IMG/VR virus record: IMGVR_UViG_3300025141_009279
Location: 1-30,905 of that record
Strand: one strand, 5' to 3'
Origin: a virus
DNA: 30,905 bases
Each line of letters starts with the position of its first letter. The first letter of the stretch is position 1. The notes beneath the pieces were generated by a model, which did not search any database, was not told the origin of the DNA, and saw only the letters and a program-made list of their open reading frames with translations. This document shows, piece after piece, positions 5,168-26,828 of this stretch. The position numbers and the translations under genes are program-made.

Positions 5168-5493
5168 TATATATCTTCTCCTGTTTTTATTATATCAAAT
5201 ATATCTTCTAATTCTTTGTCGGAAAAAACAAATTTATCAAGTTCCTCTTTTCCTTTCTCAATTAATTTCATAGATTTTTCTCGCTTCTTAATACTTTGAA
5301 TGTTATTTTCTTCTTTGTACCCGTTAATGTATTGTAGAATTAACTCATTGTTTTCCAAATATCCGTCGACCATTGCTTTAAAAAAACGCACCTGAGACAG
5401 ATCATCGTGCCGCAATCTTATGCGAAGATCTACGTGTTTCTTTACTTCTATCGCAAAGTTAATCTTTTTATGGTCCGGGCCGTAGCGATTCAT
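5167..5493 (-). CDS. Unknown 108-aa protein, possibly ribbon-helix-helix-like
   Basis: The protein begins with a short beta-like segment (INFAIEVKKHVDLRIRLRHDDLSQVRFFKAMVDGYL), followed by helical charged sequence. A strand then two helices with 'D.SQ..FF.a.v.gYL' resembles ribbon-helix-helix proteins. The rest is Lys/Glu-rich with a probable coiled coil (SIKKREKSMKLIEKGKEELDKF). The gene overlaps the end of the IMPDH-like gene by four bases (ATGA type). The function is unknown. Confidence 0.6.
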   Translation of the reverse strand: MNRYGPDHKKINFAIEVKKHVDLRIRLRHDDLSQVRFFKAMVDGYLENNELILQYINGYKEENNIQSIKKREKSMKLIEKGKEELDKFVFSDKELEDIFDIIKTGEDI

Positions 5494-6509: not shown

Positions 6510-6741
6510 TTTGGGTTTCCTTATAACATTTCGGACAGAGAAGTCTTGTCGCGCCGCTCTCAAAATTGCATTCTATTCTCCATGTGTTAACCGTCTCCTG
6601 AGTTCTTTCAAAAGGCGCATCACATGTAGCACAATTGTGGGGCATATTCTGCATATGTTCCAACTGTCGTGACATCTCGTTAATAGCATCCTTATCCCGA
6701 GTCCGCTGCTTACGTCTCTTCATTTTTCTTTCAACACTCAT
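6502..6741 (-). CDS. Small zinc-ribbon-like protein
   Basis: This 79-aa protein has a basic head (MKRRKQRTRDKD) and a helix. Two Cys pairs follow, CATC (about residue 38) and CPKC (about residue 70), spaced like a zinc ribbon. No enzyme family is recognised; a nucleic-acid-binding or adaptor role is possible. The gene overlaps the start of the IMPDH-like gene by eight bases and the end of the methylase by four, so translation is probably coupled. Confidence 0.65.
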   Translation of the reverse strand: MSVERKMKRRKQRTRDKDAINEMSRQLEHMQNMPHNCATCDAPFERTQETVNTWRIECNFESGATRLLCPKCYKETQNE

Positions 6742-11900: not shown

Positions 11901-12370
11901 GGATAGCGATAGAAGTTCTCCTCTTTGAAACTTTCCGAAACCAACTTGAAAAGATTGTTGAGACCCGTCTGGTTTTGAGCCAACAAAATCAAGTGGCTTC
12001 GGCGACGGAGCAAGTCCTTCTTTTCGCCGCGAGTCTCCTCCTCAACGAAAGTACCAATCTCCTCGGTCGTCCTTTTCTCTTTGAGGGCCTCGACCTCCTG
12101 CTTCCACTTGGAAATCGAGGGAAGGAAGTAAGCCTCGCAGCCAAACACTGGCTTGAAGTCCTTACCCTCCTTCTGCATCTTCTTGGCGTGCGTCACCTGA
12201 TATGCAAGATTGTTCATGTTGCCGTGATCGGTCAACGCTAGCGCAGTCTGGCCCGTTTCAAACGCATAATCCATGTGCTCGTCGGGATATCCCAAACCAT
12301 CAAAGATGCTTGCGTTTGAGTGGGCGTGAAGCCCCACGAATTTAATGTCTGACTTATTCTTCTTCTTCAT
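8960..12370 (-). CDS. dnaE: DNA polymerase III alpha subunit (C-family replicative polymerase)
   Basis: This is the phage replicative polymerase, 1136 aa. An N-terminal PHP domain keeps metal-ligand-like residues (LHAHSNASIFDG with His15 and His17; ALTDHGNMNN with Asp48 and His49). The palm contains GRGSAAGSLISYVMGIT and GYPDIDYD (about residues 460-466), the paired catalytic Asp. The third catalytic Asp is in FDILGL (about residue 627). GYGFNKSHAISYSML and the helix-hairpin-helix segment IKGLGDVAIDQIM follow. Length and order fit bacterial DnaE rather than the family B polymerase of T4-type phages. The PHP ligands leave proofreading or pyrophosphatase activity possible. No separate proofreading exonuclease or clamp gene was found in the window. 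The start ATG has AGGA upstream and overlaps the preceding gene by 17 bases. Confidence 0.96.
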   Translation of the reverse strand: MKKKNKSDIKFVGLHAHSNASIFDGLGYPDEHMDYAFETGQTALALTDHGNMNNLAYQVTHAKKMQKEGKDFKPVFGCEAYFLPSISKWKQEVEALKEKRTTEEIGTFVEEETRGEKKDLLRRRSHLILLAQNQTGLNNLFKLVSESFKEENFYRYPRMDYRLLKKYGEGIIASSACLGGVYAQDYWKNRDAGTSAVMDAMAETTQQMQAIFGDRWYGEIQWNRIPEQHELNQYIIKTCQKMGVDLISTADSHFPSEGTFKDRELYRRLGWIGKNRRPEWLDIDLPATLDDMDYELYPKNGDAMWDAYKKFSKELNVSYDDDIVMESLLRTHQIAHERVGSFFPDTEVRLPNFVVPDGMSADQALVQYCVDGLKANGLQDDQEYVDRLKGEIGVIQKRGFSKYFLTMKAIADRAVQDQLVAPGRGSAAGSLISYVMGITQVDPLKYKLQFSRFLTEEGTGYPDIDYDVSDPMSLKEDLIQEWGDTTVVPISNWNTLQLRSLIKDISKFYDIPFTEVNFVTGRMLHEATPEAKKAHGIKAGVYVPTFKEVMLYSKSLQDFLKKYPMVETHINVLYGQIRSCSRHAGGVVIGENLDQRMPLINSKGVRQTPWTEGQNVRHLEPMGFIKFDILGLASLRMMEEAVRHILKRHHNNPDPSFDDVRQFYNDNLHPEKMDFANQDVYKNIFHEGKWVGIFQFTENGAQKLCQRVMPTSLVDLAAITSIYRPGPLSAGVDKSYVAARRDPDSVEYPHEIFKNVTKDTAGFLIFQEQIAELAHRLGHNISLDEGNKLRKLLTKKGVDEVEKEKNKIKKKFIDGCEQKKIDYATSQQIWDLFEYFSGYGFNKSHAISYSMLSFQCAWLMNYYPIEWAAAFLDKEPEGRKERAINLAMKCGFELQPLDVNSSGKVWEIAPDNKTLIQPLTSIKGLGDVAIDQIMANRPFKNIEEFIFNENIIYSKLNKKALDALTRSGAMTSLIDERFDGAKHFWTAVAVDRPRKEKNLLENIEKYRSEGEFTDEERIQYLVDLTGVFPFDLVMDDHILRKLEEHMVPPLGEWDDRLGVAWFIPREVIQKKTRNGKNFLIIKTIDSTSTAETIKCWNANTSRDKIVLNHPYMAKLDYNDQWGFSTRSIRHTFRMLG

Positions 12371-13244
12371 CGATTCCTATTGGGTTAAGCTCTCTATAAT
12401 ATAACATACTTTTATGTGGCCTGGCAAGTAAATTCGACTCTTCGGACCCTAAAAAGTTCGTTAAGTTTTCCCAATTATCTATGGGATAATACCACGGCAG
12501 TTCAACCTCTTTTGCTCCCTCTATTGTAACAGTTTCAAAGACTTTGTCAAGAGAAAAATTTCGAGCCGAATCTCTTTCACTAGCTGGCAATCTGTCATGC
12601 ACCTCCCCATACACATACGTCTCCGGATCATGCACGCCTGTGCCCGTTCTCATTTGTTTCAATATTGTTTTGTAATCTTCTTCTCGAAAAGAAAACCCCA
12701 GGTACTCTCCATCTTTAAAAGTTTTTCCTTCGTGAGATAGATAAAACAAATCTTTTCCCGCGATATCACGACGATGCTCCCTCAACAGCCTGGGATCATA
12801 TGCCCCGTAAGGATAGGAAACATAATATTTCTTGGGTACCGCCCACTTGCTTATTCGATGAGATACCCACCATGACATAAGGGCGCCCTGCATGACGCTC
12901 CAACCATAACAATCTATCTTGTCTCGATACTTGGGGTTGATGGGAACATAAAAAATAGGAATTGGTTTTTTGTTTTCGTAAGCGTGCCTATCAAACTTTC
13001 GATAAAGCCACACAGGATCCTGAACATACTCACCGAGTCGGTGCCTTATCAGGGGCTGAATGTCATCGTTGCATACTATCCAAATTGTGTCAGCACCAGC
13101 ATATGCACATTCCACGACAGACCTTTCTATGGCAAGATAATTCTTCGCAATCGGCTGCATGCATGCGGGCCACGGGAACCCAAAATCAGAATCAAAACCG
13201 GCGACGGGAATGACCCCCACCATATGGTCGTGAGGTCTACTCAT
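12354..13244 (-). CDS. GT-A-like nucleotidyltransferase domain protein, unknown role
   Basis: The first 75 residues read like a sugar-nucleotidyltransferase: GVIPVAGFDSDFGFPWPACM, then QPIAKNYLAIERSVVECAYAG, then ADTIWIVCNDD. This is the 'iP.aG...r......k.l.pi....i...v..a..aG...i.iv' pattern of the GT-A fold. The canonical Lys/Arg of the G-x-G-T-R signature is not kept, so activity is uncertain. The remainder (about 220 aa, with KKYYVSYPYGAYDPR and GEYLGFSFREEDY) is not recognised. Proteins with this opening recur in marine myoviruses without a known function. It overlaps dnaE and the upstream unknown gene, so it probably travels with the replication string. Confidence 0.65.
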   Translation of the reverse strand: MSRPHDHMVGVIPVAGFDSDFGFPWPACMQPIAKNYLAIERSVVECAYAGADTIWIVCNDDIQPLIRHRLGEYVQDPVWLYRKFDRHAYENKKPIPIFYVPINPKYRDKIDCYGWSVMQGALMSWWVSHRISKWAVPKKYYVSYPYGAYDPRLLREHRRDIAGKDLFYLSHEGKTFKDGEYLGFSFREEDYKTILKQMRTGTGVHDPETYVYGEVHDRLPASERDSARNFSLDKVFETVTIEGAKEVELPWYYPIDNWENLTNFLGSEESNLLARPHKSMLYYRELNPIGIDEEEE

Positions 13245-14055
13245 CAGGGTTGAACCTCATGTTGCCAACCGTTCTCGACAAGAGTGAATTACTTTCCACA
13301 ATCTCGCGTCCTTCAAATTCGATCTTCACCGACAGTCGGTAATGCTCGCCAGTCTCTGGGTTGGTGCCGTTCTTCCTCCCCTTTATGCCGGCCTTTTTCA
13401 ATATGTCAAGAATCTCATATCTAGTGTAAATTTCTAGATTATTACTGTCGTTGATCTCGCCTTCGGTGAGGTGCGAGACGGCAACCAGGCGCCTCGATTT
13501 CCAATGCTTGTCCGAGGTGGTGAAATATATTTCCCCTATGGTCCCATCTTGCGACGTGATCTTCTCAATGTCAGATTTGGAGGCCGATTGCAGATGGTAC
13601 CAATCTAGAACTCGATGGTGTGGCTGCTCGGCTTGGTACGCGAACTGGACGCCTTCAATATTCTTGTCATCAAACAAGAATAAATTATTATATCTTATTT
13701 TGTAAACTCGGGAGTTCTCTGTGACCACCTTAAGGCTCTCGTCGCTAACCCTCACGGCGTTAACTTTATCTGAAAACATATTTAACCCTTCCAAGCTTAA
13801 AAGGGATAAGAAATAGTTTCTCAAATTCCGAGTTGAAATCTGCGGATTCTCTAATTGAAAATCTGCAGCAATTTGCCCCGAAAGACTCTCGTCTTCTAGA
13901 GATTCCAAGTCAGTGAAATCGAAGAAGGGGATATACTCTAGTCGATTATTTAAAATTGGATATGCGTGCTCGTAACTGTAACGTGACGCTCTTAAGGAAC
14001 TCCCAACAACTAAATTGTCGAATTCATAAACATGTTTATTTAATTGTTGCCGCAC
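13237..14055 (-). CDS. Unknown 272-aa protein with Rossmann-like start
   Basis: The N-terminus DNLVVGSSLRASRYSYEHAYPIL has the hydrophobic strand, Gly-x-Ser turn and helix of a nucleotide-binding Rossmann motif, though the Gly pattern is incomplete. Afterwards come FFDFTDLESLEDESL, an Arg/Leu helix (ISTRNLRNYFLSLLSLEG), and a C-terminal part rich in strands. It is not assigned to a family. The start is a GTG 20 bases inside the transglycosylase gene, with no strong ribosome site; no ATG in this frame lies nearby. It precedes the nucleotidyltransferase-like gene with an 8-base overlap, and the two are probably functional partners. Confidence 0.6.
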   Translation of the reverse strand: MRQQLNKHVYEFDNLVVGSSLRASRYSYEHAYPILNNRLEYIPFFDFTDLESLEDESLSGQIAADFQLENPQISTRNLRNYFLSLLSLEGLNMFSDKVNAVRVSDESLKVVTENSRVYKIRYNNLFLFDDKNIEGVQFAYQAEQPHHRVLDWYHLQSASKSDIEKITSQDGTIGEIYFTTSDKHWKSRRLVAVSHLTEGEINDSNNLEIYTRYEILDILKKAGIKGRKNGTNPETGEHYRLSVKIEFEGREIVESNSLLSRTVGNMRFNPDE

Positions 14056-14563
14056 AGTTGTCTATATATGGGTCCAATCGATTCGCAATCGAAAGATGAG
14101 AGTTTGCAGCACGAGCAATTCGGGCGGCGCGCCTCAAGATGCGCTTCGCATATCGGTGCCCGTTCTCCGAATAAGATGCAGAGTTCTTCTTGCAGCGGTA
14201 GCCGGCATTGTAGGTGCACAACGCAGTCTTATAACTTTGTTTCGCGTACGATGAATAATAAAATTTACTCAAAGTTTTGGAACCTGCTTCAATTGCAACT
14301 CGTGGATTCTTTAATTGCCGACAAGAAAGTTTTGGATTTTGAGTGTACTTTGGCAAAACCTGTGTAAGGCCACATGCGCCGGCTCGGCTAACTGCGTTGG
14401 TTTTGTAACGACTCTCCTCATGTATGAGAGCAACCATCACCGCAGGTCGGATATCATACTTTTCAGACATTTCTAGTATTGTCGGTAATTGCGCACACGC
14501 CTGCTCTGCATTTGGTATCGCCAAACCCATCAGGGACGCGCATATGGCATTGGCGACAAGCAC
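14036..14563 (-). CDS. Secreted lytic transglycosylase (SLT/goose lysozyme-like)
   Basis: The 175-aa protein starts with a hydrophobic, signal-like segment (MLVANAICASLMGLAIPNAEQA). An SLT domain follows: IRPAVMVALIHEESRY carries the catalytic Glu in HEES (about residue 48), then RAGACGLTQVLP and ALCTYNAGY. This order is diagnostic. Six or more Cys residues (CGL, LSC, ALC, RCKK, NC) suggest disulfides and a periplasmic location. It would cleave murein beta-1,4 bonds during entry or lysis. It sits oddly inside the nucleotide-metabolism string, with its GTG start sharing a base with the purA stop. The lack of positive charge at the N-terminus makes export less sure. Confidence 0.88.
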   Translation of the reverse strand: MLVANAICASLMGLAIPNAEQACAQLPTILEMSEKYDIRPAVMVALIHEESRYKTNAVSRAGACGLTQVLPKYTQNPKLSCRQLKNPRVAIEAGSKTLSKFYYSSYAKQSYKTALCTYNAGYRCKKNSASYSENGHRYAKRILRRAARIARAANSHLSIANRLDPYIDNCAATIK

Positions 14564-15552
14564 TAAATAACTTCTTTGCTAGAGCTAAAAACAACATTGA
14601 TGTTTTCGTCTAAATTGCTGGTTATGTAATCCTTCATTACCTCAACTGTGTCAAACTCTATCACTTTCTGATCTACTATCATCTTATAGGCGTCAACGCC
14701 CTCTAGAACATCAACCTTGTTGATAATCATATCTGTGACGCCGTTGATATTCGAAGCCTTTCTTAAGAGGTTCCAGTTCATCCAGTTGCACTGTCTCGGC
14801 CGGCCAGTAGTGGCTCCGTATTCCTCGCCGGCCTCCCGAATCTTGTTAAAGATCTCTTCGTTAGGTTGGAACTTCTTTGCGCCAACATAAGTCTCGTACA
14901 TTTTAGCGACGCCGTAAACATTTCTTATAGATTGAGGGGGTACTCCGTTAAGAAGTGCAGAAGCAGACGTGCAGTGAGATGAAGTAACAAAAGGATAGTC
15001 ACCCCAATCAACGTCCAGTCCAAATCCCTGTGCCCCCTCAAAAAGGATGCGAACCTCGTCATCGCTGTTGTGAAGTTCATCATATATGTCCACGATGTAA
15101 TCTTGAAGCGCTTCCACATCCTCCGCCCTTACTCCGGTCCGCGAGTACTTATCGCGATAGGCGGGGCCATTGCCACGTTTCGTTGTTCCGATAGCATCAT
15201 CTCTTCCATCTTCGCGGACATGGGCTCGTGTGATAACATGTGTATTCCTTGCAACACGTACAAATCGTCTAGCGGGTATTCCTGCATCTTCGAGTTCTTT
15301 GATTTCAGCAAACAACTGATCAGGATACACCACGCACCCAGGGCCAATAATAGATTTAATGCCATGAAGAACGCCACAAGGGATGTGATGAGTGATGAGT
15401 TTTCGACCATTATGGTAAATAGTATGGCCCGCGTTACAACCACCATTATAACGTATTACGTGAGTGTAGTCCTCAGTCTTGCACAGGTGATTAGTCACCT
15501 TTCCTTTACCGCAATCTCCATACTGGAGGTCTACTACAACATCTGCAATCAA
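14563..15552 (-). CDS. purA: Short adenylosuccinate synthetase (PurA/PurZ family)
   Basis: This 329-aa member of the adenylosuccinate synthetase family is about 100 aa shorter than E. coli PurA, like archaeal PurA and phage PurZ. Motifs seen: QYGDCGKGK (residues 10-18, catalytic Asp13 kept), GGCNAGHT (His43, first His of 'GGHNAGHT' changed to Cys), GTTKRGNGPAY, FEGAQGFGLDVDWGDYP, GATTGRPRQCNWMNW (aspartate loop with both Arg) and NKVDVLEG (GTP-type guanine-binding motif). PurZ of 2-aminoadenine phages lacks the catalytic Asp. Its presence here favours IMP + Asp + GTP to adenylosuccinate, although PurZ0-type enzymes are said to keep it. The start is TTG, seven bases after AGGAG and overlapping the thyX stop. 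Confidence 0.88.
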   Translation of the reverse strand: MIADVVVDLQYGDCGKGKVTNHLCKTEDYTHVIRYNGGCNAGHTIYHNGRKLITHHIPCGVLHGIKSIIGPGCVVYPDQLFAEIKELEDAGIPARRFVRVARNTHVITRAHVREDGRDDAIGTTKRGNGPAYRDKYSRTGVRAEDVEALQDYIVDIYDELHNSDDEVRILFEGAQGFGLDVDWGDYPFVTSSHCTSASALLNGVPPQSIRNVYGVAKMYETYVGAKKFQPNEEIFNKIREAGEEYGATTGRPRQCNWMNWNLLRKASNINGVTDMIINKVDVLEGVDAYKMIVDQKVIEFDTVEVMKDYITSNLDENINVVFSSSKEVI

Positions 15553-16268
15553 TTACCTTCTCCTTTTTTAATCTCTGTGTATGCGCCAACAGTTATCGGA
15601 AACAACCCTGTGAGAATGTCTAGCACAGCTTGTCCAACTCTCTGAATCTCCCATTGCGCGTGAGAGTCTAATCTTAAATCAATAAATTTTAAAATATTAC
15701 TGAGGTTTGCTGTTCCGTAATATTCGGTATACATGTTCTGTGGAAGAACCCCGCGGGCCTGTTCTCTGCATACTCCGGCCGCGGTCAATTCCTCATACAA
15801 TGTGACCGAGTTAACATGGTGACTTCTCACTTTATCGCTCGCTTTCAAATAGAAATAGTGCTCCAACTCTGGGTTAATCAATTCATCCTCGTTAGAGGCT
15901 TGTCTATTTATCTTATGTTGAGTTCGAAAAGCGTCAGGTTCATAAAACTGTAAATTCTCATCCGTATATCTACGCGATATCTCATTGTAAGACCACGTTC
16001 TATGGCGATGGTGTTGACTTCGTACAAACAACGGAACGACAAATTTGAATGTTGCTCCACAATGCTCTAGAGTGCTGGTGTGTCGATTCTTGATCAGATA
16101 CTTAATCAACTTTTTATCGCGATCGTCGATTTTCTCCTTATGTGCCCCGTGAGAGACGCGAGCGGAGTTAACCACCATTTTGTCATCACCGTAATGTTGT
16201 ATTAGTTGGACCTTTCCTATGCCGTCCCCGTATAAATCGATGGACGTGCCGTTTGGTTCGTCACTCAC
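15549..16268 (-). CDS. thyX: Flavin-dependent thymidylate synthase
   Basis: The 239-aa protein has the ThyX signature RHRTWSYNEISRRYT (RHRxxS type, about residues 93-107), preceded by the helix STLEHCGATFKFVVPLFVRSQ. It also has the C-terminal EQARGVLPQNMYTEYYGTANLSNILKFIDLR, which holds the substrate-binding Gln/Arg. It methylates dUMP to dTMP with FAD, NADPH and methylenetetrahydrofolate, and yields tetrahydrofolate rather than dihydrofolate. It pairs with the dUTPase and deaminase that produce dUMP. The start is GTG, with GGGGC a few bases upstream, inside the end of the adenylyltransferase gene (8-base overlap). Confidence 0.96.
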   Translation of the reverse strand: MSDEPNGTSIDLYGDGIGKVQLIQHYGDDKMVVNSARVSHGAHKEKIDDRDKKLIKYLIKNRHTSTLEHCGATFKFVVPLFVRSQHHRHRTWSYNEISRRYTDENLQFYEPDAFRTQHKINRQASNEDELINPELEHYFYLKASDKVRSHHVNSVTLYEELTAAGVCREQARGVLPQNMYTEYYGTANLSNILKFIDLRLDSHAQWEIQRVGQAVLDILTGLFPITVGAYTEIKKGEGN

Positions 16269-16674
16269 TCATCGCCCCTAAGTAAGTCTCGACATGTTCC
16301 CAAATCTTTTCGTCAACATTCTCCTTCCAGGATTCATCAGAATTTTTAATCCGTTCTCGAATCGAGGTCGCTGACACAAAACCCACATCGGGGGGTGGAA
16401 CGTGTTCGTTGATTTCATAACCGACGCCGCGGCCATAGTTGACACTTTCAATGTCCGAAATAACCACCACCTCCACATCATTGTCTTTGTAAGCCGTTTG
16501 TAACATTTCAACAGTCTGTTCGGTGGTGAAAGGATTCTTTTCATCAGGGGGAATGTCCCGAACAGCCACAAGGACCGGGATATCCTGGTCCAGCTTCTGA
16601 CTTATCAACCACTTATGTCCGTTATGTAAAGGTTGCCAGCGGCCGATGAACATCGCTCGTTTCTTAGTTTGCAT
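16261..16674 (-). CDS. HxGH-motif adenylyl/cytidylyltransferase, NadM-like
   Basis: The 137-aa nucleotidyltransferase has MFIGRWQPLHNGHKWLI (HNGH, the HxGH ATP-binding motif), NPFTTEQTVEML, and VSATSIRERI corresponding to the ISGTxIR phosphate-binding motif. The combination 'GR.QP.H.GH ... NPFt..er.eM' is closest to archaeal-type NMN adenylyltransferases (NadM). Pantetheine-phosphate or glycerol-phosphate transferases, or even an ATP-sulfurylase-like role, cannot be excluded. If it is NadM-like, it makes NAD from NMN. The ATG at 16674 follows GGAG five bases upstream; a TTG seven codons earlier is less likely. It lies 21 bp after the APS-kinase homologue, which hints at a joint pathway. Confidence 0.8.
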   Translation of the reverse strand: MQTKKRAMFIGRWQPLHNGHKWLISQKLDQDIPVLVAVRDIPPDEKNPFTTEQTVEMLQTAYKDNDVEVVVISDIESVNYGRGVGYEINEHVPPPDVGFVSATSIRERIKNSDESWKENVDEKIWEHVETYLGAMSE

Positions 16675-16695
16675 TTTTTCTCCATTTTCTTTCAA

Positions 16696-17202
16696 TCATG
16701 TGCAAGCCAGGATAAAATCACATAGCTGCTTCGTGCAATTCTGTATAGTGTCCTTGTCGGTCTCTATCACCAGATCAGGAGCAACGGGCTCTTCAAAGGG
16801 ATCTGAAATTCCCGTAAAATTAGGAATTTCACCACTCAAGGCTTTCGCGTAGAGGCCCTTGACGTCTCTGTCAATCACCGCTTCCAAGCCAGTCTTGATG
16901 TAAACTAGCTTTCCGCCGATCTCTTGACGCACCTCCTCGTAAGGGTTAATCGCTGACATGATCGCGATCACATTATTCCTTGCTAGAACTCGCCCCACGA
17001 ACCCAAGGCGTCGGACATTCGTATTGCGATCTCCCTTCGAAAAACCCAGGTCCGAGCACAGCCCTGCGCGATATTCGTCACCATCAATTATTTCAATATT
17101 TTGAATACCACGAGAAATCAACTCTTCTCGGACAGCCATGGCCAAAGTTGTTTTGCCAGCGCCCGAGAGGCCCGTCATCTGTATAAAGATTCCCTTACTC
17201 AT
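16696..17202 (-). CDS. cysC: Adenylylsulfate kinase homologue
   Basis: The 168-aa protein is a clear CysC homologue. It has the P-loop MTGLSGAGKTTLA (residues 9-21), DGDEYRAGLCSDLGFSKGDR (APS-binding DGD..R..L..dLGFs..DR), and the C-terminal DRDVKGLYAKALSGEIPNFTGISDPFEEP. Canonical enzymes phosphorylate APS to PAPS. The 'ISPyr..R' loop with the phospho-accepting Ser of bacterial CysC reads INPYEEVR here, so that Ser is replaced by Asn86. The substrate may have changed. No ATP sulfurylase or PAPS reductase is in the window. The ATG at 17202 has AGGA upstream and overlaps the GroES-like gene by eight bases. Confidence 0.88.
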   Translation of the reverse strand: MSKGIFIQMTGLSGAGKTTLAMAVREELISRGIQNIEIIDGDEYRAGLCSDLGFSKGDRNTNVRRLGFVGRVLARNNVIAIMSAINPYEEVRQEIGGKLVYIKTGLEAVIDRDVKGLYAKALSGEIPNFTGISDPFEEPVAPDLVIETDKDTIQNCTKQLCDFILACT

Positions 17203-17473
17203 GTACAATTCCTACGACGTGATTCTCCAAGACCAAACAAACTGCAGCGTCCAGAACTTTGATCTTCTCTATCATCGGCATATTAACCACGACCAAAGAT
17301 TTCTCCTTAAAATGCGTGGCGCAATCATCAGAGACAGCGACAATCCTACAAAGTTTGTACTGTTCGTCGGGCGTTCTATAATCCTCTGGAAGAAGAACTT
17401 TGGGAGCGCTCTTCTCTTGGGGAAGGACAACCACCTCCACCTGTAAGTGCCTGTTTACTGGCTTGAAATTCAT
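17195..17473 (-). CDS. groES: GroES-like co-chaperonin
   Basis: The 92-aa protein has the GroES outline. FKPVNRHLQVEVVV matches 'ikPL.DRvlVk..', then VLLPEDYRTPDEQYKLCRIVAV is the mobile-loop region followed by 'G.VvAvG'. FKEKSLVVVNMPMIEKIKV, and finally CLVLENHVVGIV, correspond to 'vGd.Vl....' and '..l.E.dILavi'. Divergence is large, as with T4 gp31, so the annotation rests on pattern and length (GroES is about 95 aa). It caps GroEL during folding of large proteins such as capsid protein. The phage's own groEL starts at the left edge. The ATG follows CGGAG, which is also the end of the preceding gene. Confidence 0.78.
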   Translation of the reverse strand: MNFKPVNRHLQVEVVVLPQEKSAPKVLLPEDYRTPDEQYKLCRIVAVSDDCATHFKEKSLVVVNMPMIEKIKVLDAAVCLVLENHVVGIVHE

Positions 17474-18702: not shown

Positions 18703-21117
18703 TTAACCACACTTAGCATACCCACAAGATGTGCATGTTACGCACCCGTCTTGGTAAAGAAGAGTCTCCGCATTACACTCCGTGCACAGTTTGTCACTAG
18801 GCAGTTCCCCGTCCTCAATATAATTCTTAAGAATTCGAGCGATGCAGCGCGCAAAGCTAAACATGTCAGAGGCTTTGTCCTTCTGAAGTTGCTCAACCAT
18901 GAAGCGTGCTTTTGCGCCATGGCGGAGGCCCAAGGAAATCATGCGAGTGAATGCAGAATTGTTTGGATTATCGAAAACCTTAACGACGTCCTTTATAAGA
19001 ATTGTATCCCCGTTAAAGCCAAAAGATAAGTCATACCTATTATTTTTTGTCTTAAAACAATGTTTTGTTAAAAGACCCTTGTTATATTTCTTTGGAATCT
19101 CGATAAGGCTTGCTTCTCCCGCAAGAACCTCGTAAGGTTGGTCGGCTAGAATTCCCACCAAAACAACCCATTTTTCCCCACCGATGGTGGTGTGGTGTAT
19201 GTCGCAGTCTAACTCTTGTGGTCTCTTTGGCGCGCTCACATGTGGGAATTCCTCCGCTGCCTCAGGGGTCCCTTCTTCTGTGATTAGGACTCCGCTGCGA
19301 GAGCCATCCACATATACTGTAATTCCTTTGAGGCCACTCTTCCATCCCTGTAAATACAATTCTCCCACAACGGACGGCTCCGTATCTTTTGGTAAGTTAA
19401 TTGTTGAAGAAATAGAGTGGTCAATGTGTTTTTGGATTGCAGCCTGAATCTCTATCCTCTTCTTCCAATCTATTTGATCTGACGTCACAAAAAAACTTGG
19501 AACGTCCGACTGTTTCAGCAAATTCAAAAATTCTTTAACATTGTGATGAAAAACACTATACTCAACCCAGCGATCACCCAGATCGTCAACGAAGTCTGCT
19601 TCCAAAGCCTGTTCGTTATGGGAAAGTTTCCGTCTACGAATGTAAGAATTTCGGAACACTGGCTCGATGCCTGTGCTAGTCTGTGATAAGAGCGAAACAG
19701 AACCAGTTGGGGCGTTGGTGAGGATGGAGATATTCCGGCGGCCGTGCGCACGAATCTGTGCTTGCAAAACTTCGGGCAAATCCTTAATAAAAGAATTATC
19801 CTTCTCCGTCTCCCAGTCAAACGCAGGAAACTGGCCTCGCTCCTCAGCCATCTTAACACTTTCCTCGTACGCGCTTATTTTCATAATCCTGTAAAGGTCA
19901 TCTACGAAGCAGATGGCGGCCGGATCGTCGTAAGGGAGGTTGAGGCAAGCGATGGCATCGGCTAGACCGTGAGTTCCCAAACCAGTTCTGCGGCCATTGG
20001 TGCATGCAGCGATCATATTGTCCCACAGTTCCCTTTCGTCATCAGTGTCACATGTGCTCTTAATTTTTAAAAGCTTTTCGTTTTCCAATTCAACCAAGTC
20101 ATCCGAAAGGCGCGTAGCTATCCGAATAACATTGCTGAACTCTTTCAGATCAAACTTTGCTTTCTTCGTGAACGGATCTTTCACAAAGTTTTTCAGATTT
20201 ACCGAAATTAATCTACAAGAGTCATAAGCCGAAAGGGCAATCTCTGCACACGGATTGACACAAATTGTCTTGAACTCGTCGTACTCGTTTGCAGGAAGTC
20301 TACTTGTGATGTTGTCCCACATCAAGAGACCCGGTTCAGCAGTCTTGGTGGCTGATTCGATAATCGATTCCCATAAGTCGGTGGCAGCAATCGTTCGAGT
20401 GTGTGTTGGGTTGTCAGAATCGACCGGAAATTGAAGAGTGAATTCCCCACCCTCCTCCACCGCTTCCATGAAACTGTCGCTTATTTTAACCGAAACATTG
20501 GCGCCCGTCACCTTTGTGAGGTCTTCCTTCATCTTCACGAAGTTCTCAATGTCGGGGTGTCGAACATCCATAGAAATCATGAGGGCGCCGCGGCGTCCGT
20601 TCTGTCCGATCATGCGACAAACGTATGAATAAAAATCAGCGAAGCTCCATGCACCGGTGGTTGTGCGCGCAGCGTTATTTACAACTGCGTTCTCTGGGCG
20701 AAGTTGTGAAATATCGAGCCCGACGCCACACCGATTTTTGAACAAATTGGCTAATTGCTTGCCGGAGTCCATGATGGAAGAAATGTTGTCTTCCGGGGAG
20801 GCGACGACAACACAATTGGACAGCGATGCATTAACATAATCATTCCCTATCCCGAACATCGGGGAACCTTGGGGAACAATATAATCAAACCCTTTCAGAA
20901 GTTTATAAATCTCCTCTTCTTTCAAAGAATTTTGAAACCCACTTTCAATTCTAGCAAATTCAGCGGCGAGGCGGCGATGCATATCGTCTGGATTCTTTTC
21001 CATGTGATTGCCGAGTTTGTCTTTAAGACAATACTTCGTCATCCACACGTTTGTGGCCAACTCGTCGCCATCAAAGTATTCTAGAGTTTCCTTCTTAACT
21101 TGCTGTTCGTTGTGCAT
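18703..21117 (-). CDS. nrdJ: Ribonucleotide reductase, class II (adenosylcobalamin-dependent)
   Basis: The 804-aa enzyme reduces ribonucleotides to deoxyribonucleotides. It has SLSNCVVVASPEDNI (first redox Cys), RCGVGLDISQLRP, GRRGALMISMDVRHPD, and the radical-site CVNPCAEIALSAYDSC (NPCxE, about residue 290). GRRNISILTNAPTGSVSLL and YVDGSRSGVL follow. A C-terminal tail CTECNAETLLYQDGCVTCTSCGYAKCG carries the CxxC type cysteines typical of NrdJ. No separate NrdB-like radical subunit or NrdI/NrdG is in the window, which agrees with class II. The enzyme needs B12, so the host must have or import cobalamin. The start overlaps the helicase end by 23 bases with GGAAGGG upstream. Confidence 0.94.
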   Translation of the reverse strand: MHNEQQVKKETLEYFDGDELATNVWMTKYCLKDKLGNHMEKNPDDMHRRLAAEFARIESGFQNSLKEEEIYKLLKGFDYIVPQGSPMFGIGNDYVNASLSNCVVVASPEDNISSIMDSGKQLANLFKNRCGVGLDISQLRPENAVVNNAARTTTGAWSFADFYSYVCRMIGQNGRRGALMISMDVRHPDIENFVKMKEDLTKVTGANVSVKISDSFMEAVEEGGEFTLQFPVDSDNPTHTRTIAATDLWESIIESATKTAEPGLLMWDNITSRLPANEYDEFKTICVNPCAEIALSAYDSCRLISVNLKNFVKDPFTKKAKFDLKEFSNVIRIATRLSDDLVELENEKLLKIKSTCDTDDERELWDNMIAACTNGRRTGLGTHGLADAIACLNLPYDDPAAICFVDDLYRIMKISAYEESVKMAEERGQFPAFDWETEKDNSFIKDLPEVLQAQIRAHGRRNISILTNAPTGSVSLLSQTSTGIEPVFRNSYIRRRKLSHNEQALEADFVDDLGDRWVEYSVFHHNVKEFLNLLKQSDVPSFFVTSDQIDWKKRIEIQAAIQKHIDHSISSTINLPKDTEPSVVGELYLQGWKSGLKGITVYVDGSRSGVLITEEGTPEAAEEFPHVSAPKRPQELDCDIHHTTIGGEKWVVLVGILADQPYEVLAGEASLIEIPKKYNKGLLTKHCFKTKNNRYDLSFGFNGDTILIKDVVKVFDNPNNSAFTRMISLGLRHGAKARFMVEQLQKDKASDMFSFARCIARILKNYIEDGELPSDKLCTECNAETLLYQDGCVTCTSCGYAKCG

Positions 21118-22486
21118 CGCCCTTCCCTTCCTCCTTCCAGGACATATATTTCTTCTTTATTTTGCTCATTTGTTGATCGGCAGCTTTCACGTTGATCTCT
21201 TCGATAGTCTCGTTGGTAGGCTCGAACACTTTGATCTTTACGTTGCTGGTGTCCATGAACATAGGGTAAATCATTCCATCATAACCTTGTCTGTTTTTAG
21301 CAACAAACATCCTCCCCGTGTTGGCGGCCTTGTCTTCGATGGTTCTGGATACGGTGCATATAAAGTCTGCCACAAAACATTTATTGAAGGCCTCGCTAAT
21401 TGCTTCCATGGTGATCACTTCGGCGTTCAACCCCGACCGGTTGGTTTGGGACGCAGTCCAAAAAACACACTTAAACTCTTGTGCTAGCCCACGCAACTCC
21501 TCGTACAAACTTTCAAGCTCATGTCTTTTCTCTCTCTCAACGCGTTTAGGGCGCAGAAGATCGGCATAGTCAACGATAACCATATCGACATCAATTCCGC
21601 GTGTTCGCAATTTCTCCAGATGTGTTTTTATAGTACTCGTGCTTGCCGTTTTCGAGGGGTACTCTTTAATTATCAACGTGCCATCAAAATCGGTCACTTT
21701 ATCGTAAACTTGTTCTTTAAAAATGGGGAGATCGTTGATTGCCACCCCCGTTAGGCAACTGTCATACCTAAGACCGATAGACATATCTTGCAACTCTAGC
21801 GTGTAGTGCACAACAGTCTTACCCTCTTTGACAGCCTGCGCGCCTAGATGCACAAGGACCATTGACTTACCGGCGCCCGTTGGCGCGATGACCACCCCAA
21901 GTTCGCTATTGCCAAGACCTCCATTTGTGATATCATCAATCAATTTCCAACCGGTGGTCACCGGGTGTCGCATCTTGGGTACATATCTTTGTTCAAAATC
22001 AGTAATATACTCATAACCAAAGTCATTGTCAGAACCAAGCTTGATGGCATCGTTAATGACTGAACTAATCTCATCAAAAGAGGAGTGCTGCAACAGATCA
22101 ACCGACTTGATCATGGCCTCCTTGAGCTTTTGCTTTTTGCAAAAATCCAAGGAAACATCTTTGATGTATTCAGCCTCCTGAATTTCCTTGGAGACTAGTG
22201 AGCGAGCCAAAAAGTCTCTTGTTTGCTTGCGTACAGCCTCGTTCTCGTCTTCGAGTTCCGACCTCAAAATGGTCGTCATGATCTCGTATGTCGGGTGAGT
22301 TTCGTACTTCTCCCGATAAGCAAAAATCTTCTGTACGAAGACCTGCAAGTACTTCAACTCGAAGAAGCCAATGGCGAGCACTTCCTGCATCTGGTCACAG
22401 AAAGTTCTTTCCTGCAAAATTAAGTGAGCTAGCTTATCCTGGAAGGACTTCCCAAATTTAGAAAAATCAACTTTTTCATCGTTCAT
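21095..22486 (-). CDS. dnaB: DnaB/gp41-like replicative helicase
   Basis: This 463-aa RecA-fold helicase has an N-terminal helical domain (about 180 aa). Then come the Walker A VIAPTGAGKSMVLVHLG (about residues 200-207), the strand TVVHYTLELQDMSIGLRYDS, and the Walker B DMVIVDYADLLRP (about residue 305). FWTASQTNRSGLNAEVIT (motif H3) and FVAKNRQGYDG (Arg-finger region) complete it. The pattern is that of T4 gp41/DnaB hexamers that unwind the fork 5' to 3'. It overlaps the upstream unknown by four bases and nrdJ by 23. Primase is not obvious in the window and is probably elsewhere. Confidence 0.94.
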   Translation of the reverse strand: MNDEKVDFSKFGKSFQDKLAHLILQERTFCDQMQEVLAIGFFELKYLQVFVQKIFAYREKYETHPTYEIMTTILRSELEDENEAVRKQTRDFLARSLVSKEIQEAEYIKDVSLDFCKKQKLKEAMIKSVDLLQHSSFDEISSVINDAIKLGSDNDFGYEYITDFEQRYVPKMRHPVTTGWKLIDDITNGGLGNSELGVVIAPTGAGKSMVLVHLGAQAVKEGKTVVHYTLELQDMSIGLRYDSCLTGVAINDLPIFKEQVYDKVTDFDGTLIIKEYPSKTASTSTIKTHLEKLRTRGIDVDMVIVDYADLLRPKRVEREKRHELESLYEELRGLAQEFKCVFWTASQTNRSGLNAEVITMEAISEAFNKCFVADFICTVSRTIEDKAANTGRMFVAKNRQGYDGMIYPMFMDTSNVKIKVFEPTNETIEEINVKAADQQMSKIKKKYMSWKEEGKGDAQRTAS

Positions 22487-22788
22487 GTGGTAGTCGACTC
22501 CACCTTCCTCAGAAGCAGTTCGTTCATTACACGAACTTTTCTTGTCAAAGAATCCTCAAGCAACACGGTGACAGGGGCCAGTGGGGACTTTATAGAAAGC
22601 ACCTCTCTGGAAGGGTCTGCTTTCCCATCCTTCGCCCAAGTGAACGAGACCTTCAAGTCTTTGTGTAGCCCCGTGCCGAGTTCCTCCACCCTGTGGTACC
22701 CTAGCAGCGTCCCATCGTCGCCCTCGATCTTCGAAGACGAGTAGAAGTATGCGCCAATAAATTGTTTGTAATCAAAATCAAATTCCAT
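22483..22788 (-). CDS. Unknown 101-aa protein
   Basis: A short protein with mixed strands (MEFDFDYKQFIGAYFYSSS, VSFTWAKDGKA, VTVLLEDSLTRKVRVM) and no recognised motif. It is tightly packed: a one-base gap to the upstream gene and a four-base overlap with the helicase. Its constant place next to the helicase suggests an accessory role in replication, but nothing in the sequence proves it. Confidence 0.6.
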   Translation of the reverse strand: MEFDFDYKQFIGAYFYSSSKIEGDDGTLLGYHRVEELGTGLHKDLKVSFTWAKDGKADPSREVLSIKSPLAPVTVLLEDSLTRKVRVMNELLLRKVESTTT

Positions 22789-22789
22789 T

Positions 22790-23098
22790 CTATCTTGCTG
22801 TTCTTCCTTCCCAAATACTATTCTTAACCTTGATGGTTACGTGCCATCGGTGGTGCACTTCTGAGGCAATCCGTTCTTTCAGGGGGCTGATCATTGTATG
22901 TGTCAATCGAGTATCATAAGGTGATTGTTGTTGGACAATGACCAGTTTCACTTGGCCATCAAATTCTAGAAACTTATATCTAACCCCCTCTTTTAGAAAG
23001 AGTTTTTCGCTCTCTTCCCCACAAATCACCTCGGCCAATGCAACCTTCTGTGTGAAACTCTCTTGTTTCCTGATTGCTCGTTCTGCGGCTGTTGCCAT
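22790..23098 (-). CDS. Unknown 102-aa protein
   Basis: The protein begins with a helix (AAERAIRKQESFTQKVALAEV) and continues with strand-forming segments (RYKFLEFDGQVKLVIVQQQ, VHHRWHVTIKVKN). It has no family I know. It is the first protein gene after tRNA-Ile and is probably co-transcribed with it from the promoter at 23216-23244. The ATG has GAGG a few bases upstream. Confidence 0.6.
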   Translation of the reverse strand: MATAAERAIRKQESFTQKVALAEVICGEESEKLFLKEGVRYKFLEFDGQVKLVIVQQQSPYDTRLTHTMISPLKERIASEVHHRWHVTIKVKNSIWEGRTAR

Positions 23099-23127
23099 GA
23101 ATCCTCATCCTTTTATTTAAACACCGG

Positions 23128-23201
23128 TCGGCCCAGTGGGATTTGAACCCACAACCTCAGCTTTATAAGAACCGCGCTCTAACCTTTGGAGCTATGGGCC
23201 A
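23128..23201 (-). tRNA. tRNA-Ile(UAU)
   Basis: A 74-nt cloverleaf on the minus strand: acceptor TGGCCCA/TGGGCCG (first pair U-G wobble), U8, D stem GCTC/GAGC, anticodon stem CGGTT/AGCTG with loop CTTATAA (anticodon UAU), and T arm GTGGG/CCCAC with loop TTCAAAT. Discriminator is A; CCA is not encoded. It would read AUA codons directly, whereas most bacteria use a lysidine-modified CAU tRNA. A promoter lies 14 bp upstream and the next gene 30 bp downstream. Confidence 0.9.
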
Positions 23202-23215
23202 GTAAATACTCCATA

Positions 23216-23244
23216 AGTATATCGGAATATACTCATGAAGTCAA
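23216..23244 (-). promoter_or_regulatory. Sigma-70-type promoter for tRNA-Ile and the helicase-nrdJ string
   Basis: The minus strand has TTGACT (23239-23244), a 17-bp spacer and TATACT (23216-23221). Transcription would start about 7 bases before the tRNA. Confidence 0.8.
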
Positions 23245-23250
23245 GAGTTA

Positions 23251-24258
23251 TTAGCGCACTTTCCGCATATGATACAAATTTTCTTTGTTAACCCCCGTTT
23301 TGAATTGAGGGAGAAAATAGAGGCCTGCGAAAACATGATACTTTCCATTAATCTTATCGTATTCCCTAATACAGGTTTCTCTTTCCGACTTAATCTTCTC
23401 ATCGTCTTTGCCAGTCAAATCGCCCACCCAATACACCATGTAAGCCTTCACAGTTGGATTGTCGATCCTCTTGTACGCTGCGTTGGCAAATGCATCTTTC
23501 CTAACTTCGCGGCCAATGTCAGCACAAGGATAAAAACAAATATTATTTGAGATATCCCCAATAGCATTCTTGGTGTTTTGTTTGGCTGTCGCCCACCCAA
23601 CCTTGTTCTGATTTTTGATATAAGTCATAGCTGATCTCTTATCGTAGTTCTCGTACATTGAACTGATGGTCCCAGAAAGGGCTTTCTTCACAAAATTCCT
23701 GTACTTCACTATCGTGTAGCCGCCGCCCGATCCGTGTTTATATACGGTCTTGAGGTGGGCGGCTGCGCGCTTCAAAAACTCCTCGGGCTGATCAATATAC
23801 TTAAAACCAACAGTGCGTTCTAAGCCTCCGTTGTCAACTCGATATTGGATTTGAGCTTTGATGTCCTCCTCTGAATTGCTTGTTTGTGGCGGATGATCGT
23901 TGCTGCTGCACTGGAAATCGTACCATTCATCCGCGGTCCAGCCCAAGGTGTCATGGTAAAAGGACACTCGAATCTTTTCTAGGTCTGCGTCGCGCATGGC
24001 CAACACCCGGGTGGCGCCGTCCTTCAACTCATATTTACCATTCCCCTTCCGTATTACAGAAATTGGCGTCTCTTGTCCGCCTTTAAGAATAGACTGGGCC
24101 ATGGAAGAGACCTTGCGAAAAACATGGCCTTTTTGTCGAATCTGTGAATTGTAGACGTCGAACTCGATGTCAACAATCGGTACCTCCATAGTATATCGTT
24201 GATCAAAGTTTGGAAGGTCGGGTCGTCTTTTGAGATCGCAGTATGTCTCTCTTTTCAT
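23251..24258 (-). CDS. ParB-like nuclease/N-domain protein
   Basis: The 335-aa protein carries a ParB/Sulfiredoxin-like N domain at about residues 25-95: VPIVDIEFDVYNSQIR, then GQETPISVIRKGNGKYELKDGATRVLAMRDAD. The 'Q.tPi.V....g.Y.L.DG.tR..A' pattern is the family core. The remaining 240 residues are unknown, with Lys/Tyr-rich helices. Stand-alone ParB-like proteins in phages act as nucleases, DNA-binding proteins or CTPase-like switches; which is not clear. No partner ParA is in the window. Its ATG shares a base with the stop of the small membrane protein (TAATG), with GGGAGAGGG upstream. Confidence 0.85.
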   Translation of the reverse strand: MKRETYCDLKRRPDLPNFDQRYTMEVPIVDIEFDVYNSQIRQKGHVFRKVSSMAQSILKGGQETPISVIRKGNGKYELKDGATRVLAMRDADLEKIRVSFYHDTLGWTADEWYDFQCSSNDHPPQTSNSEEDIKAQIQYRVDNGGLERTVGFKYIDQPEEFLKRAAAHLKTVYKHGSGGGYTIVKYRNFVKKALSGTISSMYENYDKRSAMTYIKNQNKVGWATAKQNTKNAIGDISNNICFYPCADIGREVRKDAFANAAYKRIDNPTVKAYMVYWVGDLTGKDDEKIKSERETCIREYDKINGKYHVFAGLYFLPQFKTGVNKENLYHMRKVR

Positions 24259-24452
24259 TATCCCTCTCCCTGGTCAATCCAATTACTGACTGCAGTTGCA
24301 ACTACGGCCCAAACAGAACCAGCGGCGAACAATCCAAGCACAAACTTGATTGCCGCTTCTGCGTCGTCCGTAGCGAACCACAGGCATGTGAATGAAAATA
24401 CTACCGACAGTAGCAAACCTACCAGTGATCTAGCTGTCTTTGTCCTAAACAT
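24258..24452 (-). CDS. Small two-helix membrane protein, holin candidate
   Basis: The 64-aa product has a basic start (MFRTKTARS), a hydrophobic helix (LVGLLLSVVFSFTCLWFA), a short polar turn with DDAEAA, and a second helix (FVLGLFAAGSVWAVVATAV), with a short acidic end. Size and topology fit class II holins, which would release the amidase. Holins cannot be proven from such shape, and lysis genes here are scattered. It has its own strong promoter (24476-24504) and a full AGGAGG five bases before the ATG. Confidence 0.7.
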   Translation of the reverse strand: MFRTKTARSLVGLLLSVVFSFTCLWFATDDAEAAIKFVLGLFAAGSVWAVVATAVSNWIDQGEG

Positions 24453-24475
24453 AATAACCTCCTTGATTATGGTTT

Positions 24476-24504
24476 ATAATATCTTATCTAGTAGCTCTTG
24501 TCAA
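24476..24504 (-). promoter_or_regulatory. Sigma-70-type promoter for the membrane-protein/ParB-like pair
   Basis: TTGACA (24499-24504), 17-bp spacer and TATTAT (24476-24481) on the minus strand. It lies just beyond the stop of the TSP3 gene. Confidence 0.85.
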
Positions 24505-24512
24505 GAACTATT

Positions 24513-25379
24513 TTATCGTCTTCGTAGCAGAGCGGGAATGGGGCTGTCCAGTGGAAGCACCACGTTGCAGCCCGTCAAGTCCTCTCCGGAGCCTACCACA
24601 TCAGTCTTGCCTACTTCCTCGCACTCTGCGGTGTTGACAAAACCTACTGCCCCATTCGCGCAATAATCGTCCGGACTCCACTCAGATACGTCTGAGATTC
24701 CATTGCCGTCCATATCAAAGTCGCACTCGTCCCCAATGCCATCTTGGTCTGAATCGATCTGATGAAAATTGTAGACTGTGATACAGTTGTCTACATGATC
24801 ATGAACTCTATCTCCATCGCGGTCCGTTACACACTGCATATTCTTGGTGTAGTCGCGCCTATGCAATAGGGGGCATTCATCAGTCACATCGAGGACTCCG
24901 TCGTTGTCGTCGTCCGAATCACACACGTCTCCCCACCCATCACCATCCGTGTCTACTTGGCTAGGATTGGCAACATCTGAGCAGTTATCATCAGGATTGT
25001 TCACCGAATCTCCATCCAGATCCTCGTCACAAGAATCTCCTAGGCCGTCGGCGTCTCTATCAAATTGATTTGGGTTCCAACTGGTGCGACAAGTGTCACA
25101 CGCGTCCCCCCAGCCATCCGAGTCTACATCCATCTGATCTGGGTTAGCGGCCCATGGGCAGTTATCGAAGTCATCCTCCATCCCATCCTCATCAAAGTCG
25201 TCAGCAAACTGCTGAGTGTCGCCCTGGTCAGTATTGGCGATTAGAACGCTCCCACCGCCTCCTCCACCCCCTCCGGATTCCTCCGGGGTCCCACAGAGGC
25301 CTCCGGCGCACTCGCCCTCCTCGTCGGCGTGAGCAACGTTTACGAACGCCAAGCTAATCATAATCATATTCTTCAACAT
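24513..25379 (-). CDS. Secreted thrombospondin type-3 repeat (Ca-binding) protein
   Basis: The 288-aa protein starts with a signal peptide (MLKNMIMISLAFVNVAHA, cleavage after AHA). An acidic linker with eight Gly and then tandem thrombospondin type-3 repeats follow. Units include DFDEDGMEDDFDNCPWAANP, DVDSDGWGDACD, DRDADGLGDSCDEDLDGD, DTDGDGWGDVCDSDDDNDG and DSDQDGIGDECDFDMDGNG. Each carries the D.D.DG..D..D calcium loop, and paired Cys form disulfides. The C-terminus GCNVVLPLDSPIPALLRRR has a Cys, a mildly hydrophobic stretch and three Arg. That recalls a shortened MYXO-CTERM-like sorting tail, a resemblance I rate as weak. Such proteins are usual on the surface of marine myxobacteria and relatives. 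A phage copy is odd and may alter the infected cell surface. AGGAG precedes the ATG. Confidence 0.88.
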   Translation of the reverse strand: MLKNMIMISLAFVNVAHADEEGECAGGLCGTPEESGGGGGGGGSVLIANTDQGDTQQFADDFDEDGMEDDFDNCPWAANPDQMDVDSDGWGDACDTCRTSWNPNQFDRDADGLGDSCDEDLDGDSVNNPDDNCSDVANPSQVDTDGDGWGDVCDSDDDNDGVLDVTDECPLLHRRDYTKNMQCVTDRDGDRVHDHVDNCITVYNFHQIDSDQDGIGDECDFDMDGNGISDVSEWSPDDYCANGAVGFVNTAECEEVGKTDVVGSGEDLTGCNVVLPLDSPIPALLRRR

Positions 25380-25404
25380 TTTAAACTCCTAGTTTAGTTC
25401 TTAG

Positions 25405-25485
25405 TAGGGAAGGCGGGATTTGAACCCGCAAGCCGCGAGGCGGGAGATTTTAAGTCTCCTGTGTATGCCATTCCACCACTTCCCC
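25405..25485 (-). tRNA. tRNA-Leu(UAA)
   Basis: An 81-nt class II tRNA on the minus strand. Acceptor GGGGAAG/CTTCCCT, anticodon stem GGAGA/TCTCC with loop CTTAAAA (anticodon UAA), a long variable arm (CGCCTCGCGGCTT region), and T arm GCGGG/CCCGC with loop TTCAAAT. The discriminator is A, and no CCA is encoded. It reads UUA, useful for an AT-leaning phage. Confidence 0.92.
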
Positions 25486-25498
25486 AAATCATAGTAAC

Positions 25499-25527
25499 AT
25501 AATACACGTTTTTGAGGAAAGTGTCAA
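25499..25527 (-). promoter_or_regulatory. Sigma-70-type promoter for tRNA-Leu and the TSP3 gene
   Basis: TTGACA (25522-25527), 17-bp spacer, TATTAT (25499-25504), ending 13 bp before the tRNA. The best promoter in the window. Confidence 0.88.
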
Positions 25528-25570
25528 CCCTTTTCTTTTCTTTCCTATTGGGGCAGACTGGGCAACCCGT

Positions 25571-25631
25571 TATCATAGCCAGCTAATCACGTACCCGTTA
25601 CTATCATAACCAACTAATCACGTACCCGTTA
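25571..25631. repeat. 31-bp tandem duplication of the Smr gene 3' end
   Basis: Two 30-base units (25571-25600 and 25602-25631) are identical at 28 positions. The right one holds the real last codons and stop of the Smr gene. The left one, downstream of that stop, could encode the same NGYVISWL plus stop, and both differences are synonymous (AGT/AGC Ser, TTA/CTA Leu). An 8-base ACCCGTTA occurs a third time at 25565. Confidence 0.85.
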
Positions 25632-25867
25632 TTAACACCATCCCCAATCTGAAAATTTAGTTGATACTCTTCCAAGATGTCCAATACAATCTCTCTCATG
25701 GAGAGGGAATAGCCCGTTATAAAGTGTGCTTCCATATCACTCCCCCAATGTAATTCAATAAACTCAATGCACATTCTTCTAGCGTCTTCGTGCTTGACGT
25801 TGTGCAAATCCAACTGAGGTGTAGGCAGTTCCTTGCTCTGTTTCTGAGTGCGCTTATTTCTTGGCAT
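25604..25867 (-). CDS. Smr-domain protein
   Basis: The 87-aa protein is a minimal Smr domain. TPQLDLHNVKHEDARRMCIEFIEL is the LDLHG-type helix-turn, and HFITGYSLSMREIVLDILEE corresponds to the 'iitG.G......v...l' part. The second Gly of the TGxG motif is Ser here. Smr domains bind or nick nucleic acid, often as C-terminal parts of MutS2. A phage stand-alone copy next to a flap nuclease suggests a branched-DNA or mRNA role. It overlaps the nuclease gene by 14 bases. The gene ends in a copy of a duplicated segment (see repeat). Confidence 0.8.
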   Translation of the reverse strand: MPRNKRTQKQSKELPTPQLDLHNVKHEDARRMCIEFIELHWGSDMEAHFITGYSLSMREIVLDILEEYQLNFQIGDGVNNGYVISWL

Positions 25868-26828
25868 TATGATCGGAGATATTCCTTTTAAAATTCTGAA
25901 ACAGGTCGACCAGCGAGATCTCCCCTATCCCATCTTGCACCATCATCTTGCGAACGCCGGTCTTATTCAAGAGCGGCTTAAAGTTTTTGAAAATGTCGTT
26001 TATGTGTTGCTTCTGTTGAATTGAAATAGAAGGAGCGTAAAGTTGCATCAACTTATAGTTCTCTCTTATAATCGTCTCTCCCTCAACAATGTTTGTGTGG
26101 GCACCAACTTTATTTTCTACGGCCTCGCAATAGTCAACGACCTCTTTGATTGAGCAGTCTCGTTCCTCGGACAGAAACGGCAGTCTCTTTGCCACCGTGG
26201 CCAATCCGACGCGTCCTACGCCAGAAAGATTATCGCTTTTGTCACCCACGATGGCCCGGGCCAACGCGAAGTTGCGAGGATGAATGCCGAACTTCTCGAC
26301 TACCCTGTTTTTATTCAAAACTTCCTTTTGTATGGGGCGATAGAGAACTGTCTCCTGATCAAGCAATTGAATAAAATCCTTATCAGAACTTACAATTATC
26401 TTTTGCCAACCTTGATGGACTCGGTGGTTTACCACATAGGAGATAACATCGTCTGCTTCGACACCATCTGACACCAACTGAATCATTGGCATTTCATTCA
26501 AGTATTCAAAGAGGCGAGTTTGTTGCCAAATCTTATTAGCAGTCTCCTCGTTCTCAGAGAGGTTCCGGATTGTACGGTTAAGCCTGATTGGCTTTCTCCC
26601 CTCCTTATAACCTTTGTTGACTGACTTTCGCTTTTGAGAACCACCTTGGCCATCCCAACAGATGATAATCCTGTCTGGGCTCATCTCTCGTACAAGTCTG
26701 TTTGTTATTTTTAGAAAGCCCTTGAGGCCTCCAATTGGTTGTCCGTTTGAGGACAGTGATGGGTCTACGATATATGCTCGGATAAACTGATTAAGAGCAT
26801 CCAGCACCAGCAACTTCTTCGGTTTCAT
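25854..26828 (-). CDS. T4 RNase H-like 5'-3' exonuclease/flap endonuclease
   Basis: The 324-aa member of the FEN/5'-exonuclease family removes RNA primers and flaps during lagging-strand synthesis. Metal-binding motifs: LLVLDALNQFIRA (first Asp), IICWDGQGGSQKRKSVN, GVEADDVISYVV (about residues 120-131), IVSSDKDFIQLL (about residue 146), and GDKSDNLSGVGRVG (helix-3-turn-helix with Asp pair, about residue 195). No polymerase domain follows, as in T4 rnh. The start ATG has only a weak GCGAG upstream. Confidence 0.92.
   Translation of the reverse strand: MKPKKLLVLDALNQFIRAYIVDPSLSSNGQPIGGLKGFLKITNRLVREMSPDRIIICWDGQGGSQKRKSVNKGYKEGRKPIRLNRTIRNLSENEETANKIWQQTRLFEYLNEMPMIQLVSDGVEADDVISYVVNHRVHQGWQKIIVSSDKDFIQLLDQETVLYRPIQKEVLNKNRVVEKFGIHPRNFALARAIVGDKSDNLSGVGRVGLATVAKRLPFLSEERDCSIKEVVDYCEAVENKVGAHTNIVEGETIIRENYKLMQLYAPSISIQQKQHINDIFKNFKPLLNKTGVRKMMVQDGIGEISLVDLFQNFKRNISDHNAKK

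Follow-up and report, generated by a model that had tools for sequence, protein, structure and literature searches.

Evidence for a phage-captured, C-terminally shortened copy of the myxobacterial cohesion gene mtsC on a virus fragment

The record studied here is a virus fragment of 30,905 bases, and the whole of this stretch is called the window below. According to the sequence comparisons, one of its genes can firmly be regarded as a phage-captured, C-terminally shortened mtsC, the gene for a cell-cell cohesion protein of myxobacteria. Phage-borne genes for host-surface proteins are already known, but we know of no phage that carries a bacterial cohesion protein. As a tentative wider reading, which we hold as possible rather than probable, several groups of T4-like ocean phages may have captured and reshaped this Myxococcota protein to control the contacts between host cells. 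If true, viruses would act on the cell-cell adhesion and the multicellularity of predatory Myxococcota, and the gene would probably mark the host of marine T4-like phages that have not been cultured. The truncated, anchored and full-length phage forms would then also constitute a natural set for dissecting the roles of the parts of MtsC.

The reading frame at 24513-25379 (minus strand) is intact, starts with ATG and encodes 288 amino acids. The Pfam family TSP_3 (PF02412) matches the protein with E = 1.8e-32 and 111 bits, far above the gathering cut-off of 25. The N-terminus, MLKNMIMISLAFVNVAHA followed by DE, reads by eye as a classical Sec/SPase I signal, and its shape is kept among the relatives with different letters. 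The window protein is likely exported. It is followed by an N-terminal module typical of MtsC, of which the poly-Gly tract is a part, and then by the TSP3 array (Table 1). The exported TSP3 protein of myxobacterial type, which had been proposed in the preliminary description, is borne out. The repeats resemble those of eukaryotic thrombospondin and COMP (3fby, 1yo8) in their calcium-type sequence and spaced Cys, whereas the other thrombospondin domains are missing from the window protein, and the kinship lies at the level of the repeats alone. The AlphaFold model of the window protein is poor (mean pLDDT 50).

Table 1. Features of the mtsC-like gene and its surroundings in the window (positions in the window; residues in the 288-aa protein)
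Feature	Positions	Strand	Basis or remark
MtsC-like secreted TSP3 protein, 288 aa	24513..25379	-	ORF, Pfam and NCBIfam matches
Putative Sec signal peptide, residues 1-18 (cleavage between AHA and D)	25326..25379	-	Inspection; shape kept in relatives
MtsC N-terminal module, residues 23-74 (ECAGGLCGTPEESGGGG..SVLIANTDQGD..ADD.DEDG...DNC)	25158..25313	-	N-terminal HMM; genome specificity; DNA match to bacterial mtsC
TSP3 repeat array, about residues 61-234	24678..25199	-	Pfam; likeness to calcium-binding repeats of COMP/TSP-1/TSP-2
Rudimentary sorting tail GCNVVLPLDSPIPALLRRR, residues 270-288; retains the Cys and the Arg end but lacks a membrane helix	24516..24572	-	Tail comparison, Cys count
tRNA-Leu(TAA), same apparent transcription unit	25404..25485	-	24 nt upstream of the gene
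Sigma-70-like promoter, exact TTGACA-N17-TATTAT, upstream of tRNA-Leu	25499..25527	-	Kept in L007-L009 and L012; variant in L013
Second exact TTGACA-N17-TATTAT, which closes the unit immediately behind the gene	24476..24504	-	Motif scan
Cargo block flanked by DnaB (21095-22486) and exonuclease (25854-26828)	22487..25853	-	Junction comparison in relatives

Then, which TSP3 protein is it? The NCBIfam model NF047638 (MtsC, myxobacterial cell-cell cohesion MYXO-CTERM protein) matches the window protein with E = 1.5e-83 and 281 bits, below the curated cut-off of 350, and the match spans model positions 8-246 of 428. This score alone was not used as proof, as about 200 bits per stretch are also obtained by ordinary TSP3 proteins. 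Because the TSP3 repeats alone score highly on NF047638, the non-TSP3 N-terminus was tested separately, with an HMM built solely from 20 bacterial MtsC N-termini and with phage sequences left out. The window-type protein obtains 76 bits with this model and all 43 phage proteins obtain 70-100, while 13 other TSP3 proteins do not exceed 18. A generic TSP3 match was consequently rejected, as the phage-free model splits the MtsC types from other TSP3 proteins. The preliminary description of a TSP3 surface protein in general had the kind right and was too weak, the match being to one specific cohesion protein, MtsC.

The likeness reaches the DNA, where window positions 25156-25317 show 73% identity over 162 nt with a bacterial mtsC (E = 1.2e-18). 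In the phylogenetic tree, the phage proteins of the window type (group A) are sister to the lineage of this bacterial mtsC with support of 93/90, although the bootstrap is not fully settled, and groups A and B, described below, form one clade each (100/98). In these comparisons, the closest bacterial MtsC is that of one lineage, down to the DNA level. The preliminary description had called for the nearest homologues, and the nearest non-phage ones are MtsC of Myxococcota; the homologues are not confined to phage tail or fibre proteins. One apparent bacterial homologue (L027, PBOB01000052.1, from an Acidiferrobacteraceae MAG, 73% identity) was rejected, as its contig belongs to a phage related to that of the window.

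The window protein shares with MtsC the signal-peptide-like start, the module EC..CGTP..SGGG..L[IV]..TD.GD..Q, the TSP3 array, and a tail with a Cys and a basic end. However, it is phage-encoded and has 288 aa compared to about 440 aa. The C-terminal domain of MtsC, FCYVV...CLDP...ANR...W, is missing from it, as indicated by the alignment and by the end of the match at model position 246 of 428; the lost domain had no significant match in PDB. Moreover, the tail of MtsC has a membrane helix, while that of the window protein has none.

The preliminary description had compared this tail to a shortened MYXO-CTERM signal (TIGR03901, handled by the myxosortase MrtX), and the comparison holds: GCNVV..ALLRRR is present, and a GC...RR(R) tail recurs in nearly all close relatives. 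The GC motif and the C-terminal Arg cluster (RRR in the window protein) are common to both. The middle of the window tail, however, is short and broken by Pro or charged residues, and it is therefore without a transmembrane helix; its longest run free of charged residues, N/Q/H and Pro is 3 residues, versus 12-26 in the bacterial tails. The group A tails are alike: they start with GC and, after about 10-17 residues, end with RR or RRR (one exception), and their hydrophobic runs are mostly short. The tail Cys, C271, is invariant across the phage alignment and is the odd one out: of the 15 Cys of the window protein, 14 belong to the body and one to the tail, and an even body count with a further tail Cys was found in 30 of 30 full-length phage proteins tested, which are related sequences and not 30 independent trials. 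Since the body count is even, the tail Cys would be left unpaired. No MrtX was found in the three phage contigs searched.

The window is not an isolated case. Close IMG/VR loci with the window-type gene number 11 (identity 85-100%), and a DNA pattern search for the N-terminal module returned 43 viral stretches; most members of groups B and C were found by this pattern, so that the presence of the module there is partly by construction. The preliminary description regarded such genes as unusual in phages, which is contradicted by the dozens of uncultured phage contigs carrying MtsC-like genes. Besides that of the window, at least two other phage groups carry related versions of MtsC. Group B comprises AT-rich phage contigs encoding a protein of about 210 aa with a Cys, a membrane helix and usually a basic end, which also lacks the MtsC C-terminal domain according to the alignment; T4-like gp23 occurs on the two of these contigs that are longer than 200 kb. 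Group C is full-length MtsC with the Cys, the membrane helix and the basic tail, on two large phage contigs. One of them (L084, 190,698 bases, with gp23) encodes at 578-1858 (minus strand) an MtsC with 461.7 bits, above the NF047638 cut-off, and the other (L225, 153.8 kb) is distantly related to the window phage. With three representatives as queries, no match was found in INPHARED (50,697 phage records), and for the three forms tested, the window protein included, PHROGs gave no match, structural or otherwise. The plasmid search gave no match.

In group B, the short mtsC is adjoined by the gene for a lipoprotein with a C39-like peptidase domain (for example L073, 2399-3226, minus strand, and 12 further contigs). 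In most cases this gene is located just a few bases ahead of the short mtsC, and the two form a conserved two-gene unit in the 13 contigs.

On the bacterial side, 379 genomes of the phylum of genome G008 were searched for the MtsC N-terminal module, which occurred in 22 of them (two more had weak matches alone). It occurred in one of 398 genomes of the Pseudomonadota-type phylum of an Acidiferrobacteraceae MAG, where the match is itself a phage contig, and in none of 247 genomes of the Bacteroidota-type phylum of a Flavobacteriales MAG; the phyla of the three sets are named from MAG titles and from MtsC, MYXO-CTERM and MrtX-like genes, not from a label. MtsC, MYXO-CTERM tails and myxosortase-like genes occur in all 12 genomes tested of the phylum of G008, from which we infer that it is Myxococcota. 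A Myxococcota host is probable for these phages. No CRISPR match linking phage to host was found, and in the single genome that the class of the closest lineage contains, the DNA matches were limited to the mtsC region and a weak one of short length among the TSP3 repeats. Relatives such as a Red Sea MAG contig indicate a marine origin, and the IMG sample numbers are presumably marine as well.

What could a phage do with a shortened MtsC? In bacteria, MtsC (printed 'MstC') takes part in cohesion, S-motility and development (PMC11980579), and its gene can adjoin that for an mtsD-like VWA lipoprotein. We favour, with a probability of roughly 45%, an exported MtsC mimic, by which either contacts that depend on MtsC or the access to a receptor would be blocked on a Myxococcota host. 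The product would be made during infection, exported by Sec, and then probably moved outward via the host type II pathway; TraA from which MYXO-CTERM has been removed passes into the medium through the T2SS (PMC11980579). The phage product would be released, or held loosely at the surface through the lone tail Cys. With its N-terminal module and TSP3 rod it would there take up the binding partner of host MtsC, which may be MtsD or the exopolysaccharide/pilus surface. The competition would loosen cohesion, so that progeny could escape aggregates, and/or would mask the surface from additional phage. The retention of module and rod, together with the loss of anchor and C-terminal domain, would fit such a competitor of host MtsC.

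On the other hand, the sorting tail is complete in groups B and C, whose proteins could add to cohesion instead of blocking it. A phage might supply a working adhesin that keeps infected cells within aggregates, or brings them there, so that infection spreads to their neighbours. The full-length MtsC with complete tail on two large phage contigs, one above the curated cut-off, and the anchored short forms of group B agree with such a role, but neither the C-terminal domain nor the membrane anchor is present in the group of the window, and group B also lacks that domain; we consider it quite unlikely.

Masking of the surface could also be the main effect rather than a by-product. If MtsC, or an MtsC-organised surface, is the phage receptor, the mimic might exclude superinfection by shielding infected cells or soaking up rival virions. 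That separate phage groups have repeatedly captured one and the same surface protein of the host speaks for this, and the gene's own sigma-70-like promoter would permit early expression. A precedent may be seen in phage-encoded surface lipoproteins of the Ltp type, which serve in exclusion (PMC3952083) and are likewise phage gene products placed or predicted at the host surface. However, the window protein has no visible N-terminal lipoprotein signal and derives from a host cohesion protein, its exclusion role is putative, and the classical cases are temperate phages. We hold this explanation to be rather unlikely.

Among the genes of the window are those for a DnaB-like helicase, SSB, a UvsX-like recombinase, an exonuclease, DNA polymerase III alpha and ribonucleotide reductase, and the contig of a close relative with the same mtsC-like gene (G002) carries a T4-like gp23 capsid gene; based on these genes, the phage origin of the setting is sound. 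A virion-associated adhesin or tail decoration, sticking particles to host aggregates, would suit the arrangement in L065, where a short mtsC (1655-2353, minus strand) lies close to tail genes, including that for baseplate J protein. The window gene, in contrast, has a signal peptide, lies among replication genes and lacks a PHROG match, tail or otherwise. No observation connects its product with the virion, and such a role is very improbable.

The gene lies in a block of 3.4 kb between exonuclease and DnaB. Among 64 relatives in which both genes are readable, the gap is 3.4-3.8 kb in the four carrying the gene and mostly less than 100 bases in the 60 without it. Some of these 60 (among relatives L145-L222) hold other inserts of 0.3-4 kb. 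Since the junction is nearly closed in most non-carriers and filled differently in some, it may be regarded as a cargo slot, and the cargo-like insertion of the preliminary description is confirmed; as in moron-type cargo, the gene is inserted into an otherwise conserved gene order and has its own promoter-like sequence. The promoter motif occurs five times in the window with no more than one mismatch, against 0.18 expected. The preliminary description had the gene share a promoter with a tRNA. TTGACA-17-TATTAT does stand ahead of tRNA-Leu, but the link to the tRNA is not fixed: the same kind of promoter drives the mtsC-like gene directly in L013, and the gene follows another ORF in L010.

In L014, mtsC is 99% identical to that of the window while the flanking genes are about 50-76% identical, a contrast which shows that mtsC is swapped between phage backgrounds. 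Such swapping would suit a passive passenger, that is, a host gene gained by recombination and without a role. Yet omega is about 0.03-0.05 where dS is computable, with dS near saturation, pointing to strong purifying selection; the gene is present in every close relative covering the locus, its promoter is kept in several, and the even-Cys pattern is maintained. A gene without a role is the least probable of the explanations.

Other window genes may also be mentioned. Three proteins (186-1877, 12354-13244 and 13237-14055) have no PHROG match, the latter two being conserved in the group. The window further carries a large nucleotide-metabolism set, namely IMP dehydrogenase/GMP reductase (5490-6563), adenylosuccinate synthetase (14563-15552), adenylylsulphate kinase (16696-17208) and a nucleotidyltransferase (16261-16695).
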